A DNA stretch of 64,000 nucleotides from Halorhodospira halophila. GTDB lineage: Bacteria > Pseudomonadota > Gammaproteobacteria > Nitrococcales > Halorhodospiraceae. How positions within the stretch are numbered: the first letter of the stretch is position 1; the number at the start of each line of letters is the position of its first letter. The stretch covers positions 50,891-114,890 of the forward strand of contig NZ_NHSN01000015.1 of NCBI RefSeq assembly GCF_016653405.1. The letters are read 5' to 3'. Positions 46,572 through 55,453 of this stretch are shown piece by piece. A program made the translations under genes and the position numbers. The notes under the pieces were generated by a model that saw nothing but the letters and a program-made list of their open reading frames with translations, was not told the origin of the DNA and searched no databases.

Positions 46572-48143
46572 TCAGACCGGACAGCCGGTGGACTGTTCCC
46601 GCAGCCTGCGGATGTGATCGATGAGCTGCTGCAGGACACCCAGTCCGACCCGCTCCTTGAACACCCGGTCCGCCCCGGCCTGCAGGCAGTCGCGCTGCAC
46701 GTCGGCCAGAGGATGGGCGGTGATGATAGCAATGGGGGTGCGCGGCATGTCCTCCTCGGCTTCGGCCTGACGCACCAGCCGGGTCAGCCGGCGTCCGTCG
46801 AGATCGGGCAGGTGCAGGTCGAGGAGCATCAGGTCCGGGGGCCGGCGCTGCCACTCGTCGAAGGCGTCCACGCCGTTGTCCACCAGACGGGGTGCGCAGC
46901 CGATGCGCAGCAGGAGTTCGTAGAGCAGCCGGCCACTGGCCGCATCGTCCTCGGCGACCAGCACATCGAGTTCCACCGCACCCGGGGACGGGACCTCGTC
47001 ACCGAGCAGATCGCCAACCATTGAGGCCTCGCCGTCGTTGTCGGCCTCCGGGAGCACGGCGGAGAAGCTGAAGACCGCACCCGCGCCGGGGGTGCTCTCC
47101 ACCCGGATTTCCCCACCGAGCAGCGAGACGATCTGCTGGCAGATGTAGAGGCCGAAGCCACAGCCGGTTTCACAGGTGGGTGAGTTGCAGGCGCGCGTGA
47201 AGGCCTCGAAGATGCGCGCCTGATCCGCCTCGGCGATCCCCGGCCCGGTGTCGGCCACCGCCACCTCGATCCGCGCCCCCTCAAGCCGCCGCACGCGTAC
47301 CGTCACCGAGCCATGCTCGGTGAAGTGGATGGCGTTGTGGGTGAGGTTGTTGACCACCTGGAGAAAGCGTACCGGATCGCCGCGCACCCGGCGCGGCAGC
47401 GCGCCGCCCCACTCCAGGTGCAGCTGCAGTCCCTTGCGCTCGGCGAGTTCGCGCAGCAGCGCCACCTGCTCCGACAGGCAGCGGCGCAGGTCGAAGGGCT
47501 CGGCGCGCAGTTGGCCTGCATCGGGCTCGGGCTGTGCCAGTCCAAGGATGGCGTGGACCTGGGCGAGGAGGGTCTCGCCGGCCATTTCCGCCTGCTCGAG
47601 GTCGTAGCGCTGCTCGGCATCCAGGGCGGAGGCCCGGAGACGCTCATGGGCCCGGCCCAGGGTCCGCAGCGGCTTGCTCAGCCCATGGCTGATCGCCCGA
47701 AGGGAGGCGCGGTGCTCCTGCTCGGCACGGGCACGGGCCCGCTCGGCCTGGCGCTGCTCGGTGACGTCCTCGTTGATCCCGAACATCCGGCTCGGCTGGC
47801 CCTGCTCGTCGTAGAGCTGCTGTCCGGCGGAGCGGATATCCCGCAGGCTGCCGTCCGGCCGGCGGATGCGAAAGGTCGTCTCCCAGGGCTGGCCCTGCTC
47901 CACCGCCGCCCAGATCCGCTCCAGCGCGGCCCGGCGGTCTTCCGGCAGCAGGCGCTGCTCCCAGGCCGCGAAGGTCAGCGGCGCATCGCCGTAGGGCACC
48001 CCGTAGAGGTCGTACATGGGCTGATTCCAGTGGAACACGCCGGCGCGCATGTCCAGTTCCCAGACCCCGATCCCGGCGGCTTCGGTGGCGACCCGAAAGC
48101 GCTGCTCGTTCTGATGGATGATGCGGTGATACGGGTTGGACAT
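46572..48143 (-). CDS. PAS hybrid kinase with altered H-box (PAS-HisKA*-HATPase-REC)
   Basis: 523 residues. A PAS domain (about 12-130, [15 protein letters not shown]) is followed by a dimerisation helix with His153 in [11 protein letters not shown]. The family consensus is H-(D/E)-L-R-T-P-L, so the catalytic acid after His is Gly and RT is SK. The HATPase keeps Asn ([14 protein letters not shown]) and DTGPGIAE, but the G2 box reads GCGFGLYI. The receiver has Asp in [10 protein letters not shown], yet its Lys is followed by Glu (VFKERVG) instead of Pro. It may be a weak kinase, a phosphatase-deficient form or a sensor scaffold. It lies beside kaiBC on the same strand, with one divergent gene between. 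Confidence 0.88.
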
Positions 48144-48973: not shown

Positions 48974-50500
48974 TCACTCACAGTAATGCGAGGATCGGGG
49001 ATCCCTGCCGGCAGCGGACGGCGAGTCGATGATTCGGTTGGGATGCCCCTCCAGGATGCCTTCGATGCCGCGGAACGGGTCGCCGATATGCATGCCCCGG
49101 TGATCGATCCGGAACTGCCGAATGCTCTTCTCGTGAGCGGCACCGCGCATCTTGAGGACGGTGAGCCCGCGCCGCACCTCGCCGGCCATTTCGACGTAGC
49201 GCAGCAGGATGATCGAATCGGTGAGTGTGGAGATGTGGGCCTCGGTGACGGAGGATCCACCCATCAGCGAGGGCGTACTGGCCGTAAACAATCCCGCCGT
49301 CTCCCGATCCTTGGTGAAGGAGGTCAGAGCGATGACAAACTCCCGGAACCCACGTGGGGTGGCTACGCGCTCCAGCGCGGTCAGGCTGTCGAGAGCGATC
49401 CGGTGGGGCCGGAAGGTGTCGATGGCCTGCTTGATGCGGATGAGGTGATCCTCCAGCCCGGCCGACTCCGGGTACTCGCAGTGGATTTGCAGGTCACCCC
49501 GCGCTTCGGCGGGCTCGTACTGAACGTCCCAGCCACGGGCGTTGCGGATGAGCTGGTCGCGACTCTCCTCGAAGGCAAAGAGCAGGCAACGCTCGCCGAC
49601 CGCCAGGCCGCCTGCGATGAATTCCGTGGCCATCAGGGTCTTGCCGGTCCCCGTGGCCCCGGAAGCGAGCACGATGGAATCCCTGTAAAAGCCACCGCCG
49701 CACATCCGGTCCAGATCGGCGTTGCCCGAGGTAATACGCAATTCGGAGGAACGCTGGGTCAGTTCCATCGCCGAGAGCGGGATTGCAACCACACCGCTTT
49801 CGGGCAGGATCGTGAACGGGTACTCCCCTTTCTGGTGGTTCGTGCCGCGGAATTTGAGGATCTCCACCGTCCGGCGGCGTGTCTCCGCCTCCAGGATATT
49901 CCGCAGGATGACCACGTTATCCGCAACGAACTCTTCCACCCCGTGCCGTGCCACCAAACCATACTCGGCCTCGCGCTCGGCGGTCATGACGGTGGTGATC
50001 TCCAGGCGCTTCATCTGGCCGGCAATCCGAAACAGATCCCAGCGCACCTGCCGGACATCCGGGAAGCGCGAGAACATGGCACCGAGGGAGTCGATGGCCA
50101 GGCGGGTCGCGCCCGAGCGCTGCACGGCGCCGAAGACCCGAGCGATCAGGCCACCCAGGTCGTAGGCGCCGGTCTCCTGCGGCTCCTGATCGATATCGGG
50201 GGAGGCGTCCACGAACGTCCACCAGCCGCTGGCCTCCCACTCCTCCACGGGCCACCCGAAGGCCTGCAGATTGCGCCGCAGGTCGGCCGGTGATTCCTCG
50301 CAAGTGACAAAAACGCCCGGGGTTTGCTCATCGAGGATCCCCGCAGCCAGGAACTGCCCCGCAAAGACCGTCTTGCCGCTACCCGGCGTACCCGCGACCA
50401 GAGTGGTCCGTCCCGCCGGGACACCCCCCCGGGCGATGGAGTCGAACCCCGGGATCCCGGTGGCGGTCTTGCGCACCGGCTCGATGCTCCGTTCACTCAT
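48974..50500 (-). CDS. kaiC: KaiC circadian-clock ATPase/autokinase
   Basis: 508 residues with two RecA-like halves. CI has Walker A GTPGSGKT (37-44) and catalytic pair Glu68/Glu69 in TCEES. CII has GATGTGKT (281-288) and Glu311/Glu312 in AFEES. The cyanobacterial phosphorylation pair S431/T432 is conserved as Ser424/Thr425 in AHISTLTD, with Thr419 matching T426. This is therefore a true KaiC autokinase candidate, not just a RadA-like relative. The C-terminal tail after NRIIDS is short and does not resemble the KaiA-binding segment; no kaiA is present. It overlaps kaiB by four bases (ATGA). Such kaiBC pairs act as timers or hourglasses in some purple bacteria. Confidence 0.95.
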   Translation of the reverse strand: MSERSIEPVRKTATGIPGFDSIARGGVPAGRTTLVAGTPGSGKTVFAGQFLAAGILDEQTPGVFVTCEESPADLRRNLQAFGWPVEEWEASGWWTFVDASPDIDQEPQETGAYDLGGLIARVFGAVQRSGATRLAIDSLGAMFSRFPDVRQVRWDLFRIAGQMKRLEITTVMTAEREAEYGLVARHGVEEFVADNVVILRNILEAETRRRTVEILKFRGTNHQKGEYPFTILPESGVVAIPLSAMELTQRSSELRITSGNADLDRMCGGGFYRDSIVLASGATGTGKTLMATEFIAGGLAVGERCLLFAFEESRDQLIRNARGWDVQYEPAEARGDLQIHCEYPESAGLEDHLIRIKQAIDTFRPHRIALDSLTALERVATPRGFREFVIALTSFTKDRETAGLFTASTPSLMGGSSVTEAHISTLTDSIILLRYVEMAGEVRRGLTVLKMRGAAHEKSIRQFRIDHRGMHIGDPFRGIEGILEGHPNRIIDSPSAAGRDPRSSHYCE

Positions 50501-50808
50501 GGCATTCCATCCTTTGCCTCGGGGATCAACTGCAGGCCGTTGAGTACCTGCTCACGATCCGAAAGATCACCGATGACACGCCGCACCGGTGGCGGTAGCT
50601 CCTTAATGAGCGCGGGGGTGGCAATCACCCCCTCTTCGTCACCCCGGTGCGGCTCGTGCATCAGATCGACCACCTCGATGCGGTACTGATCCGGGAACTG
50701 TGACTCGCAGATCCGCTGGAGATTGTGCAGGGCTGCGCGGGCGTGCGGACTGTCGCCCGCAATGAAAAGCCGCAGCAGATAGCGGGGCGCGGAGGTGTCT
50801 TCTGGCAT
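50497..50808 (-). CDS. kaiB: KaiB clock protein
   Basis: 103 residues of the KaiB thioredoxin-like family: LLRLFIAGDSPHARAALHNL, then YRIEVVDLMHEPHRGDEEGV, IATPALIKELPPPVRRVIGD and LSDREQVL. The TPALIK..PPPVRR region includes the cis-prolines that allow KaiB fold switching. It binds the CI ring of phosphorylated KaiC. Length is near the 102 residues of S. elongatus. It is the first gene of kaiB-kaiC, with a promoter expected in the 192 bases shared with the divergent CBS-GGDEF-EAL gene. Confidence 0.95.
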   Translation of the reverse strand: MPEDTSAPRYLLRLFIAGDSPHARAALHNLQRICESQFPDQYRIEVVDLMHEPHRGDEEGVIATPALIKELPPPVRRVIGDLSDREQVLNGLQLIPEAKDGMP

Positions 50809-51000
50809 ATCTGGCGTGCCCTGAGGTCTTCCGGGCAGGCTAGCATCGCCGGTCTCACAAGACCATCGAACGCCAGCTGGCGTGCTTGTGCACGACCGCC
50901 TGCGTGCTGGCAGAATGCCCGCAGGACGTGGCCGGGATCGACCCTAATCGGGGCACCGACCGCCGCCCGGGCCCCCGGGGCGACACAAGGACTCCCGCAC

Positions 51001-53502
51001 ATGGATAACGAGACGCCGGTCACCCGGCTAATGCACGCCGGCATCCTCCACTGCTCACCGGAGACCCCGCTCAACGAGGCGGCCAACCGCATGGCTGCGG
51101 GCGGCAAAAGCGCCATCGTGGTCCTCGATGACGAGGATCGCGCCATCGGCATCTGGACCGAACACGACGCGCTGACCGTCGATTTCTCCGACCCCTGCGC
51201 GTGTCAGGTTCCGATCCGCGAAGCCATGAGCTCCCCGGTAGAGACGGTGCCGTCGCAGACCTCCATCGGCGAGGCGGCCAGTGCCTTCCGCGAGGGGCGG
51301 CGCCGCCATGCGCTGGTGGTGGACACCCGCGAGCGGCCCATCGGCATCATCTCGCGCACCGATGTCGTCCTCAATCTGGGCCTCGCCCCCTACCTGCGCC
51401 TGCGTGAGGTGCGCAGCGTCATGCGTACCGAGCCACTGGTCCTGCCCGACACCCTCCCCCTGGCCGATGCGGCGGCGCAGATGCGCGAGTCGGCCTGGGA
51501 GGCCGCCGTGGTGGCCGCCCCCGGTGACGAGCTGGGCATAATTACCGAGCGGGACCTGGTGCGCTGCGTCGCCGACTACCCCGGCTCGACGGTGATCGGC
51601 GCACTGGCCAGCCGCCCGCTGCTCCAAATCGAGGCCGATGCCCTGTTGATCCGCGCACGCAGCCTGTTCTTCCACAACCAGGTCCGCCACCTCGCCGTAA
51701 CCGATGAGCAGGGCTCCGTGGCGGGGCTGCTCGGCCTCAACGACCTACTCGTTGGCACCGAGCAGCTCCACCTCAAGGATTTGCAGAGCGCCATCGAGCA
51801 GCGCGACGAGGCCATCAGCGAATCCCGCATTAACGCTCGTTTGGCACAGCGGCTAATCGAGTCCTCGCGGGAGGCGGTGATGATCACCAGCGCCGAGGGT
51901 TACATCGAGTACATCAATGATGCCTTCGTCGATCTCACCGGCTACAGCAATAGGGACGTCATCGGTCGAACCCCGTCGCTGCTGGCCTCGGGCCGCCATG
52001 CCCAGTCTTTCTTCAGCGACATGTGGCAGTCGATCCACGAGCAAGGCGCCTGGGAAGGCGACATCTGGAACCGGCGCAAGACCGGCGAACTCTACCTGGC
52101 CAGCCTGAACATCAGTGCCGTACGCAACGATCGGGGGCAGACCGTCAACTACGTCGGCCAACTACACGATGTCACCGAAATCCGCGACCAGCAGGAGCGG
52201 CTGCGCCGCCAGGCCTACTACGACCCGTTGACCCGACTGCCCAACCGGCGCCTGATCGAGGAGCGGCTACCGACCATAGTGACCCGGGCCAGCCGTGAGG
52301 GTGGTCACATCGGGATCGTCATCATCGACCTCGACGGCTTCAAGCAGGTCAACGACAGCCTGAACCACGACAGCGGTGACCGCATCCTCCAGGAACTGGC
52401 CGGGCGCATGAACGAAACCCTGGGCGAGGCGGACGAACTGGGCCGGCTGGCCGGCGATGAGTTCATCGCCATCATTGCCCCGGGCGGGGACCACGACGGC
52501 GTGGTCCGGCGTGCCCGGCGTCTGATGAGCGCCGTGAACGCCCCCCTGGAGCAGGCCGGACAGCACTTTCGCATCGGCTGCAGCGTCGGGATCGCCACCT
52601 ACCCGGACGACGGCGAGGAGGCCAGCGCGCTGATCCAGCATGCCAGCACCGCACTGCGCCGGGCTAAACACGAGGGGCGCAACACCCTGCGCCTCTACCG
52701 CGCCGAGATGCACGAGGCCATCCACCAACGCCTGGCCCTGGAGAGCGATCTGCGCGGCGCCCTGGAGAATGACGCGGGCCTAGAGGTCTGGTACCAGCCG
52801 CTGTTCACGTCAGCCCACCACCGCCTCGCCCACCTGGAGGCCCTCGTCCGCTGGCGTCACCCGCAGCAGGGGCTCATCGCCCCGGGAACGTTCGTGCCAC
52901 TGGCCGAGCAGGCAGGGCTGATGCGCAGCCTGGGTGACTGGGTGCTCGACGCGGTCTGCCGGCAACTGGCCACCTGGCGGGAGCAGGGGCTGAGTCCTCC
53001 GCCCGTCGCCGTCAACCTCTCAGCGCAGCAGCTGTGGGTCGATGATCTGGTGAGCCGGGTCCGCGACCGACTCGATCACCATCAGTTGCCGAGCCAATGC
53101 CTCTCCTTCGAGCTCACCGAGAGCGCATTCCTGGCTCCGGATCAGAACCCCACCGGGGTGCTGCGAGGGCTGCGCGAAATCCCCTGCGAGGTCGCCATCG
53201 ACGACTTCGGTACGGGCTACTCGTCCCTGAGCTACCTTCATGAGCTCCCGGCCAACACCCTGAAAATCGACCGGGCGTTTATCCGCGGCTTGGCGGAGAA
53301 CCGCAACAGCCGCGCCATCGTCGCTGCGATCACCAGCCTGGCCCGGGAGCTTGGCATGAAGGTGGTGGCCGAAGGGGTGGAGACAGCCGAACAGCTGGCG
53401 GCCCTGGAAGGCTTTCCGGTGGACCTGGTGCAGGGTTTCCTGCTCGGGCGGCCCACCCCCGCCGAGGACGTGGAGCAGGCGTTCCTGACCGCGACGGCTT
53501 AG
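51001..53502 (+). CDS. CBS x4-PAS-GGDEF-EAL c-di-GMP protein
   Basis: 833 soluble residues. Four CBS repeats, i.e. two Bateman modules, occupy about 1-255 (starting VTRLMHAGILHCSPETPL, then MSSPVETVPSQTS, MRTEPLVLPDTLP, and a last repeat near 200). A PAS domain with a TGYSNRDVIGRTPSLLASG segment follows at 285-400, then a cyclase domain with AGDEF in place of GGDEF and no RxxD site, and a complete EAL domain (LEALVRW, AVNLSAQQL, FELTESAF, IDDFGTGYSSL, KIDRAF, EGVET). CBS modules commonly sense adenine nucleotides, so this protein could tie energy charge to c-di-GMP. AAGGA nine bases before ATG 51001 sets the start. It is divergent from kaiB. Confidence 0.92.
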   Translation: MDNETPVTRLMHAGILHCSPETPLNEAANRMAAGGKSAIVVLDDEDRAIGIWTEHDALTVDFSDPCACQVPIREAMSSPVETVPSQTSIGEAASAFREGRRRHALVVDTRERPIGIISRTDVVLNLGLAPYLRLREVRSVMRTEPLVLPDTLPLADAAAQMRESAWEAAVVAAPGDELGIITERDLVRCVADYPGSTVIGALASRPLLQIEADALLIRARSLFFHNQVRHLAVTDEQGSVAGLLGLNDLLVGTEQLHLKDLQSAIEQRDEAISESRINARLAQRLIESSREAVMITSAEGYIEYINDAFVDLTGYSNRDVIGRTPSLLASGRHAQSFFSDMWQSIHEQGAWEGDIWNRRKTGELYLASLNISAVRNDRGQTVNYVGQLHDVTEIRDQQERLRRQAYYDPLTRLPNRRLIEERLPTIVTRASREGGHIGIVIIDLDGFKQVNDSLNHDSGDRILQELAGRMNETLGEADELGRLAGDEFIAIIAPGGDHDGVVRRARRLMSAVNAPLEQAGQHFRIGCSVGIATYPDDGEEASALIQHASTALRRAKHEGRNTLRLYRAEMHEAIHQRLALESDLRGALENDAGLEVWYQPLFTSAHHRLAHLEALVRWRHPQQGLIAPGTFVPLAEQAGLMRSLGDWVLDAVCRQLATWREQGLSPPPVAVNLSAQQLWVDDLVSRVRDRLDHHQLPSQCLSFELTESAFLAPDQNPTGVLRGLREIPCEVAIDDFGTGYSSLSYLHELPANTLKIDRAFIRGLAENRNSRAIVAAITSLARELGMKVVAEGVETAEQLAALEGFPVDLVQGFLLGRPTPAEDVEQAFLTATA

Positions 53503-53546: not shown

Positions 53547-54191
53547 GTGGAAGCAAACGACTGGCTACTGCTGATCACCGTCTGCGCCCTGGGGGCCATG
53601 TCGCCGGGGCCGAGCCTGGCGGTTGTGGCGCGTCACAGCCTGGAAGGCGGTCGGTCGGCCGGGCTCACCGCGGCCGTCGCCCACGGTATCGGCGTCGGCG
53701 GCTACGCCGCCCTCAGCGTGGTCGGGCTGGCCGGTATCCTGGCCGCCCACCCGACCCTGCTGGCGGCCATCCAGGGCCTGGGTGCCGCATACCTGGGCTG
53801 GCTGGCCGTGCAGTCCGCCCGCAGCGCCCGGATCGGACCGGAACCCCCTGCTGCACAGAAAGACCGGTCGCCGGCGCAACCGGGCAGCCCGATCCAGGCG
53901 GCAGGAGACGGCCTGGCCATGGCACTGCTCAACCCGAAGATTGCCCTGTTCTTCCTGGCGATCTTCAGCCCGTTCACCGGCCCCGGGCAGGCGGCGTGGG
54001 AGCAGGCGCTGATGGTGTCCATTGCCGCCGGGGTGGACATCGGGTGGTATGCGGCGGTCGCCGCGCTGTTCTCGCTGCCAGCCTGGCGTGAGCGGCTAAA
54101 AAGCCACCAGCGGCTGCGCGAAGGAGTCTTCGCTGTGGTATTGGCCATGCTCGCGCTCTACACCGCCGGCATCGCTGTGGGCGCTGTCTGA
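53547..54191 (+). CDS. LysE/RhtB-family amino-acid exporter
   Basis: 214 residues from a GTG, about six membrane segments, with the LysE family start LLLITVCALGAMSPGPSLAVV and the central MALLNPKIALFFLAIF motif. It probably exports an amino acid or derivative at the inner membrane; the substrate is unknown. It follows the CBS-GGDEF-EAL gene by 44 bases on the same strand. Confidence 0.88.
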   Translation: MEANDWLLLITVCALGAMSPGPSLAVVARHSLEGGRSAGLTAAVAHGIGVGGYAALSVVGLAGILAAHPTLLAAIQGLGAAYLGWLAVQSARSARIGPEPPAAQKDRSPAQPGSPIQAAGDGLAMALLNPKIALFFLAIFSPFTGPGQAAWEQALMVSIAAGVDIGWYAAVAALFSLPAWRERLKSHQRLREGVFAVVLAMLALYTAGIAVGAV

Positions 54192-54220: not shown

Positions 54221-55453
54221 TCACCCGCGCTCGGCGCGATCCACCGCCTCGCCCCACTCCTGGTCATAGCCCCAGGCCATGTGCGGCGAATAGAGCACGC
54301 GCAGCTCCTCCTGGCGGTACACGCCACGGATCTCTACACCCTCCTCCTCCGCCAGCGAGCGGAACCGTGGGCGGATGAAGACGCTGCCGTCCGGCCGGCG
54401 CAGCAGGAAAACCTGTGGGGCCATGCTGCTCGGGCCGCGACGGGTCACCACCGCGGTCTCGCCGTTGCTCAGATCGACCAGGGTGCCCGGTGGGAAAACC
54501 CCCAACTCGCGAATGAGCAGCCGCGTCAGCGTGGCGTCGAAGCGACACCCATCGTCCGCGTATAGCTCCCGCAGGGTATCCCGGATGACATGCGCCGGGC
54601 GGTGAGCGCGAGGGGTCACCATGGCCATATAGACATCGGCGAGCATGACCACCGCGGCCTCGGTACTGATCCCCTCCCGCGTCAGCCCGCGGGGGTAGCC
54701 GGAGCCGTCCATCCGTTCGTGATGCTCGCGGACGGCGCGCAGCCAATGTTGATCCTCCAGGCCCGCGGCCGTCAGCAACGCCTCGGTCCGCTCCGGGTGA
54801 CTGTGGAGTTCACGGCGCTGCGCCGCGCTGAGGGCGCTCTCCTGCTGATCGAGCTGTTCCTGCAGGGCGAGCATGCTGAGGTTGGCGGTCAGCGACGCAC
54901 CGACCACCGCCCGGCGCTGACCACCGTCCAGAGAGGCGGCGCGGGCGAGCAGGTCCGCGACTACAGCCTTGCGGATGGGGTGCAGCACGCGATTGGGGAA
55001 CTCGCGGTTGATGTGCGCCGCCGCCAGTGCAGCATCCGGATCGCGGTCGATCAGGTTGCCGAGCTGGCTGATCATCCCTTCCAGCCGCAGCAGGTAGTCG
55101 TGGCGACCGAGATCGATGGCGTGATGGACCCGCCGCAGGGAAGCGGCACATCGGTCGAAACTGACGAAGGGATCGAACTTCAGTTCGCCACTGTGGTTCT
55201 CCCAAGACGGGCTGGCTTCCCCCAGGGTAACCGTATCCTCCTGGAACGAGGTGGCACGAGCGCGCCCCGACTCCAGCAGCATCTGGCGCTGCGCGTCGCT
55301 TTTCAGCACGCGGCCGGAGCGCAGCAGGAGCCGCTCGTAGGTATCGTAGATGGAGTAAGGCACCGGGCGACCCACGACGAGATCCTTTCCGCGCACGGGC
55401 AGGAAGCGCTCCGGCTCCCCGCTTTCTGGGCTGCGTTTCGACTGCTCGCTCAT
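54221..55453 (-). CDS. Degenerate HD-GYP domain protein
   Basis: 410 residues. An N-terminal part (about 18-65, RFLPVRGKDLVVGRP) resembles the N-terminal domain seen before HD-GYP domains. A helical middle follows, then an HD-GYP domain with the GYP box HHERMDGSGYPRGL (244-257) and LADVYMAM. The metal-binding HD pair, expected about 60 residues earlier, is missing: the segment reads VGASLTANLSM. The enzyme should be catalytically dead as a c-di-GMP phosphodiesterase and may bind the nucleotide or a partner instead. The frame continues upstream, but ATG 55453 fits the domain start. It is divergent from the SNF2 gene. Confidence 0.85.
   Translation of the reverse strand: MSEQSKRSPESGEPERFLPVRGKDLVVGRPVPYSIYDTYERLLLRSGRVLKSDAQRQMLLESGRARATSFQEDTVTLGEASPSWENHSGELKFDPFVSFDRCAASLRRVHHAIDLGRHDYLLRLEGMISQLGNLIDRDPDAALAAAHINREFPNRVLHPIRKAVVADLLARAASLDGGQRRAVVGASLTANLSMLALQEQLDQQESALSAAQRRELHSHPERTEALLTAAGLEDQHWLRAVREHHERMDGSGYPRGLTREGISTEAAVVMLADVYMAMVTPRAHRPAHVIRDTLRELYADDGCRFDATLTRLLIRELGVFPPGTLVDLSNGETAVVTRRGPSSMAPQVFLLRRPDGSVFIRPRFRSLAEEEGVEIRGVYRQEELRVLYSPHMAWGYDQEWGEAVDRAERG

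Follow-up and report, generated by a model that had tools for sequence, protein, structure and literature searches.

A probable KaiA-independent KaiBC timer encoded beside a separate c-di-GMP enzyme in Halorhodospira halophila

In a 64,000-nucleotide stretch of the Halorhodospira halophila genome (assembly GCF_016653405.1, contig NZ_NHSN01000015.1, positions 50,891 to 114,890; the window), kaiB and kaiC lie back to back with a gene for a CBS-PAS-GGDEF-EAL protein (CPGE), whose GGDEF and EAL domains are those of cyclic di-GMP (c-di-GMP) enzymes. The question raised by this locus is whether the arrangement marks a clock that acts through c-di-GMP, as a sequence-only reading of the window had suggested. 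Comparative analyses indicate, with moderate confidence, that the locus instead encodes a KaiA-independent, ATP/ADP-driven KaiBC timer situated beside an unrelated, nucleotide-sensing c-di-GMP enzyme.

The sequence-only reading had proposed checking synteny in relatives and had named adjacency in this genome alone as evidence against a circuit. That check was run, and kaiBC and CPGE are adjacent in this genome only. KaiC orthologues (79-83% identity) are encoded by three of the eight other congeners, and kaiC is thus present in four of the nine genomes of the genus. In these three congeners (G002, G003, and G005) metY and metH flank the kaiC locus, which lacks CPGE, and full-length CPGE is absent from all congeners. 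CPGE orthologues were found in 12 other genomes, three of them from the same family (G001, G010, and G011) and nine from elsewhere in the class, and in none of the 12 are kai genes nearby. This is so even in G122, whose CPGE gene is on contig 4 while its two kaiBC loci are on contig 3. A conserved kaiBC-CPGE linkage was rejected across the family and 369 genomes of the class. With congener kaiC lacking CPGE, and CPGE orthologues lacking kai, the pair is unsupported as the mark of a clock-to-c-di-GMP circuit.

In G003, the gene order is metY, a methyl-accepting chemotaxis protein (MCP)-type gene, kaiC, kaiB, a PAS-MCP-type gene, and metH. The order in G002 is the same, but kaiB was not detected in the operon, while in G005 kaiB and kaiC stand alone between metY and metH. 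The host genome (2.86 Mb, 45 contigs, 99.9% complete) differs: its metY and metH adjoin each other on contig 27, and kaiBC lies on contig 15. Most simply, kaiBC was relocated in this lineage and the pairing is derived in this one genome, although the contig 15 position may be an assembly join. Four-taxon trees of KaiC, MetH, MetY, and KaiC2 had the same best grouping, with the alternatives rejected only by MetH and KaiC2. Because these trees agree on the best topology, kaiC appears to have been inherited vertically and to occupy a derived position. A horizontal gain of kaiC inside the genus was considered and rejected: in a quick tree of 70 rows the window KaiC fell with that of G002, but the topology of MetH was preferred in the four-taxon test, and no conflict is claimed.

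Two features of the congener loci were recorded separately. In G002, kaiC directly follows the PAS-MCP-type gene with no kaiB between (L032:8447-8514), and only kaiB2 was found in that genome. In two congeners (L032:7599-12132 and L033:6580-11265) kaiC has a gene for a soluble PAS-MCP-type protein on one side and one for a HAMP-containing MCP on the other, which suggests that chemotaxis is the Kai output where kaiC is flanked in this way. At a further locus, 86% identity to KaiC residues 451-501 was seen in a stretch (L030:2366-2518) that follows what appears by eye to be a small antitoxin-like open reading frame, with the rest of kaiC missing; it is either a remnant or part of a chimeric contig.

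The coordinates, strands, and identities given for kaiC, kaiB, and CPGE in the sequence-only reading proved correct, as did all its numbers. KaiC has two Pfam KaiC ATPase domains (E 1.1e-103) and scores 583 bits with TIGR02655, the NCBIfam KaiC clock equivalog, against a cut-off of 546. All features of a double-domain clock KaiC are present, namely the two ATPase domains, both Walker A motifs (residues 37-44 and 281-288), both Glu pairs (68/69 and 311/312), and the T-S/T phosphosite (Thr419, Ser424, and Thr425). The residues earlier described as intact are therefore intact, and at exactly the positions given. KaiB matches PF07689 (E 1.3e-23; 82.9 bits against a Pfam cut-off of 27) and so has the KaiB fold, although its score is under the NCBIfam equivalog cut-offs. 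Two photosynthetic reaction-centre genes of the pufL/M type were found in the host genome, and the host is thus an anoxygenic phototroph. Judged by its residues, then, the system would be competent for phosphorylation, and the earlier description of a KaiBC that lacks KaiA and has a short-tailed KaiC is supported, here in a phototrophic host.

The absence of KaiA holds in a stronger form than first claimed. A genome-wide search for KaiA (PF07688) gave zero matches up to E 10, which places the system outside the KaiABC clocks. This Pfam test is weak alone, since many of the non-cyanobacterial kaiBC loci examined have directly upstream of kaiB a gene for a response regulator of ~290 amino acids that scores only as a receiver in Pfam. 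These regulators resemble Synechocystis KaiA3 (PMC11372060) in position and C-terminal domain. A home-made KaiA3-type profile, built from 20 of them, found nothing in the host genome or its 11 relatives (12 genomes of the family), yet the same search gave matches elsewhere with E values of 1e-42 or lower. A hidden KaiA was ruled out by these two empty searches, and the system is likewise not of the KaiA3B3C3 type, in which a KaiA3-type regulator is encoded, usually just upstream of kaiB.

The KaiC tail is consistent with this absence. Among the loci examined, a C-terminal motif of approximately ExxRLxxMF occurs in 29 of 33 KaiC proteins with a nearby KaiA3-type gene, the other four having the variant -DR[LI]xGMF-, and in 1 of 17 without such a gene, that one being from a cyanobacterial metagenome-assembled genome (Fisher p 1.5e-8, kinship ignored). 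The window KaiC and its three congeners belong to the 16 that have neither the motif nor the gene. Congener KaiCs end five or six residues past the GHPNR motif and the residue after it; the window KaiC has 18 unrelated residues there. As a separate observation, KaiA3-type regulators have their genes close to kaiB across many Proteobacteria and in further phyla (L016, L017-L021, L026-L027, L029, L093-L095, L098-L099, L128-L138, and L141-L144), where they track the KaiC C-terminal motif; this spread exceeds the five non-cyanobacterial genera listed in PMC11372060.

CPGE begins with CBS domains, of which three copies were scored and a fourth is visible by eye, followed by PAS, GGDEF, and EAL domains. 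CBS modules often bind adenine nucleotides, a property that would count towards CPGE informing the timer of energy state. The open reading frame list opens the frame at GTG 50725 within kaiB, but the start was placed at ATG 51001 because relatives align from residue 1-2 of that start onwards. The GGDEF signature reads AGDEF, a tolerated variant, and the inhibitory RxxD site is without its Arg. All EAL motifs are present (EAL, NLSxQ, DDFGTGYSS, KIDxxF, AEGVET, and QGFxLGxP), and CPGE is predicted to be most likely mainly a c-di-GMP phosphodiesterase. No KaiB- or SasA-like domain of the Kai-binding type was found in its domain scan.

The divergence of kaiB and CPGE from a 192-base upstream region was also described correctly. 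A perfect 14-base palindrome, ACGCCAGCTGGCGT, lies within this gap at 50870-50883. It was rejected as a conserved operator, as it is absent from all fetched loci of other genomes and palindromes of 14 bases occur in the window at chance frequency. No sigma-70-type site was found in the gap, and a structured RNA was likewise rejected (z = -1.31, not notable). The features of the locus and of the neighbouring genes are collected in Table 1; the PAS-histidine kinase-receiver gene was not found beside kai in the congeners.

Table 1. Features of the kaiBC-CPGE locus and neighbouring genes, with positions counted from the first base of the window.
Feature	Coordinates	Strand	Remarks
PAS-histidine kinase-receiver protein	46572..48143	-	Downstream of kaiC, same strand
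kaiC	48974..50500	-	508 amino acids; KaiC1/KaiC3-type, Ser424/Thr425; without KaiC2-type C-terminal extension and without KaiA3-associated tail motif
kaiB	50497..50808	-	103 amino acids; 4-base overlap (ATGA) with kaiC
Divergent intergenic region	50809..51000		192 bases between kaiB and CPGE start codons
CPGE (CBS-PAS-GGDEF-EAL)	51001..53502	+	833 amino acids; AGDEF, RxxD site lost, EAL motifs intact
LysE-type exporter	53547..54191	+	44 bases downstream of CPGE; neighbour outside the Kai system
HD-domain protein	54221..55423	-	52% identical relative adjoins metH in congener G003, near the kaiBC locus there

A KaiA-independent timer is suggested by the lack of KaiA and KaiA3 and of the tail motif, together with precedents for A-loop removal and KaiA-free function (PMC10076222). 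In such a timer, KaiC would autophosphorylate at Ser424/Thr425 without KaiA; with its regulatory tail lost or degenerate, it would need no KaiA to pull out the A-loop. KaiB would then bind the CI ring, favouring dephosphorylation and ATP hydrolysis. The timer would be reset by the ATP/ADP ratio, which the light-dark cycle determines in this phototroph, and would therefore behave as an hourglass rather than as a free-running clock. CPGE would be a separate c-di-GMP enzyme, tuned by adenine nucleotide on its CBS domains and by its PAS domain, that came to lie beside kaiBC when these genes left the ancestral metY-metH site in this lineage.

The best-surviving alternative is a dedicated coupling in which the Kai timer controls CPGE, via protein contact or the shared divergent promoter, and c-di-GMP is the clock output. 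The 192-base region common to both genes is compatible with it, and broader support comes from kai loci elsewhere. Genomes bearing KaiC were sampled from the class and the phylum without regard to neighbours, and the genes around each kai locus were labelled. In 9 of 31 genomes, and in 8 of 20 genera, kaiB or kaiC has a GGDEF or GGDEF-EAL gene as its immediate neighbour. GGDEF genes make up ~5-11 per thousand genes (eight genomes counted), so that ~1-2% adjacency is expected by chance per locus. For 8 of 20 genera the binomial probability is 3e-9 to 3e-6 at a rate of 2-5%, with this null rate assumed, adjacency calls read by hand, and genera not fully independent. Proteobacterial kai loci thus adjoin c-di-GMP genes far above chance.

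Additionally, the host genome has a second system, kaiC2-kaiB2, on another contig (L081:8659-10628, G000:C30), which the sequence-only reading had not seen. It is of the KaiC2 type, with two Ser sites and without a long C-terminal extension, and occurs in the host and all but one of the eight other congeners, some of which lack the first kaiBC (L083-L090). In two congeners (L083:5018-8846 and L084:6097-9829), a PAS-PAS-GGDEF-EAL gene comes directly after kaiC2 and kaiB2, in the same orientation. This link between kai and c-di-GMP is tighter than that of the window pair and is a further point for output coupling.

Similar neighbours have been reported before. Nearly every non-cyanobacterial kaiBC cluster was described as encoding, immediately downstream of kaiC or kaiB, either a histidine kinase or a GGDEF/EAL protein, and these neighbours were proposed as signalling partners (De Luca et al. 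2011, PMC3164672). In Synechococcus elongatus, c-di-GMP alters the period and phase of the clock, with no direct effect on the Kai proteins in vitro (PMC13001216, 2026). The earlier statement that a clock to c-di-GMP link of this build had not been described therefore stands for the exact architecture, but not for the principle.

Against output coupling, the pair occurs in one genome only, CPGE is widespread without kai, and congener kaiBC lacks CPGE. The genes are also divergent rather than co-directional, and CPGE has no KaiB- or SasA-like domain. We consider this alternative unlikely, and infer instead that the timer and CPGE lack dedicated coupling. Two observations nevertheless count against that preference. 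The general kai/c-di-GMP enrichment makes pure coincidence less likely here than the single-genome pattern implies, and the neighbours of kaiBC have been swapped among congeners (MCP-type genes in G002 and G003, none adjoining in G005, CPGE in the host), a pattern also compatible with new wiring.

It is also conceivable, but improbable, that this kaiBC copy is a decaying relic without timing function. The patchy occurrence of kaiC in the genus, the degenerate KaiC tail, and the G002 operon, which retains kaiC with no kaiB seen, would fit decay; however, the catalytic and phosphorylation residues are all intact, and KaiC has 79-83% identity to its congeners, similar to MetH. Least probable is the reverse direction, in which CPGE supplies the timer with an input, either energy state or c-di-GMP. 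In its favour, KaiC timers are set by ATP/ADP (PMC10076222) and a c-di-GMP change shifts the S. elongatus clock; against it, c-di-GMP did not act directly on the Kai proteins of S. elongatus in vitro, and the kaiBC-CPGE linkage is not conserved.

Dedicated coupling in one direction or the other is doubtful when both are taken jointly, and is kept open because of the general enrichment and the varying kaiBC neighbours. A bolder version holds that a KaiBC timer that had lost KaiA3 and the KaiC regulatory tail was newly wired to the nucleotide-sensing CPGE via the shared divergent promoter in one purple sulfur bacterium lineage, as one example of c-di-GMP enzymes being recruited again and again as the outputs of Kai timers. 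We regard it as speculative and rather unlikely.

Three further arrangements were seen at kai loci of other genomes. At four loci (L132:7016-8640, L133:7796-9393, L137:6411-8292, and L094:2502-4126) a PAS-PAS-GGDEF gene is overlapped by a gene for an additional KaiB-domain protein, an arrangement that would suit a diguanylate cyclase with a KaiB-like partner. At L136, kaiC stands together with a PAS-PAS-GGDEF gene. In G122, the two kaiBC loci are separate, and each has its own PAS-GGDEF-EAL gene directly before it on the same strand (L096 and L097).

The exact kaiBC-CPGE pair carries little weight unless coupling is shown, and the wider pattern is weightier. Outside cyanobacteria, kai genes lie beside c-di-GMP enzymes in several builds, some with kaiB and GGDEF genes tightly coupled. 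Together, this adjacency and the co-occurrence of the KaiC tail with KaiA3 give testable predictions on the drive and outputs of simple Kai timers.

Compared with known systems, CPGE shares its N-terminal CBS-PAS architecture with other Gammaproteobacterial CBS-PAS-GGDEF-EAL proteins (G001, G122, G172, and others; mostly 42-51% identity), but those genes have no kai alongside. The locus is like the clusters of De Luca et al. (PMC3164672) in that kaiBC adjoins a protein of the PAS-GGDEF-EAL class. There, however, the gene is immediately downstream, whereas CPGE is divergent, upstream, CBS-containing, and not conserved. With the S. elongatus KaiABC clock the system shares a double-domain KaiC, the T-S-T phosphosite motif, and KaiB, but it has neither KaiA nor the KaiA-binding tail. 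Similarly, it resembles Synechocystis KaiA3-KaiB3-KaiC3 (PMC11372060) in the broad KaiC clade, Ser-Thr sites, and kaiB-kaiC order, yet is without the KaiA3 gene and the associated KaiC tail motif. In Rhodobacter sphaeroides, a KaiA-free KaiBC is driven by ATP/ADP, and hyperphosphorylation on A-loop removal is cited (PMC10076222). Its KaiC is of the KaiC2 type, with two Ser sites and a C-terminal coiled coil of ~50 amino acids; the window KaiC has neither of these features, being of the KaiC1/KaiC3 type with Ser-Thr sites and no extension. Nonetheless, the window system is like the R. sphaeroides hourglass in having no KaiA, an anoxygenic phototroph as host, and intact ATPase and phosphorylation residues.

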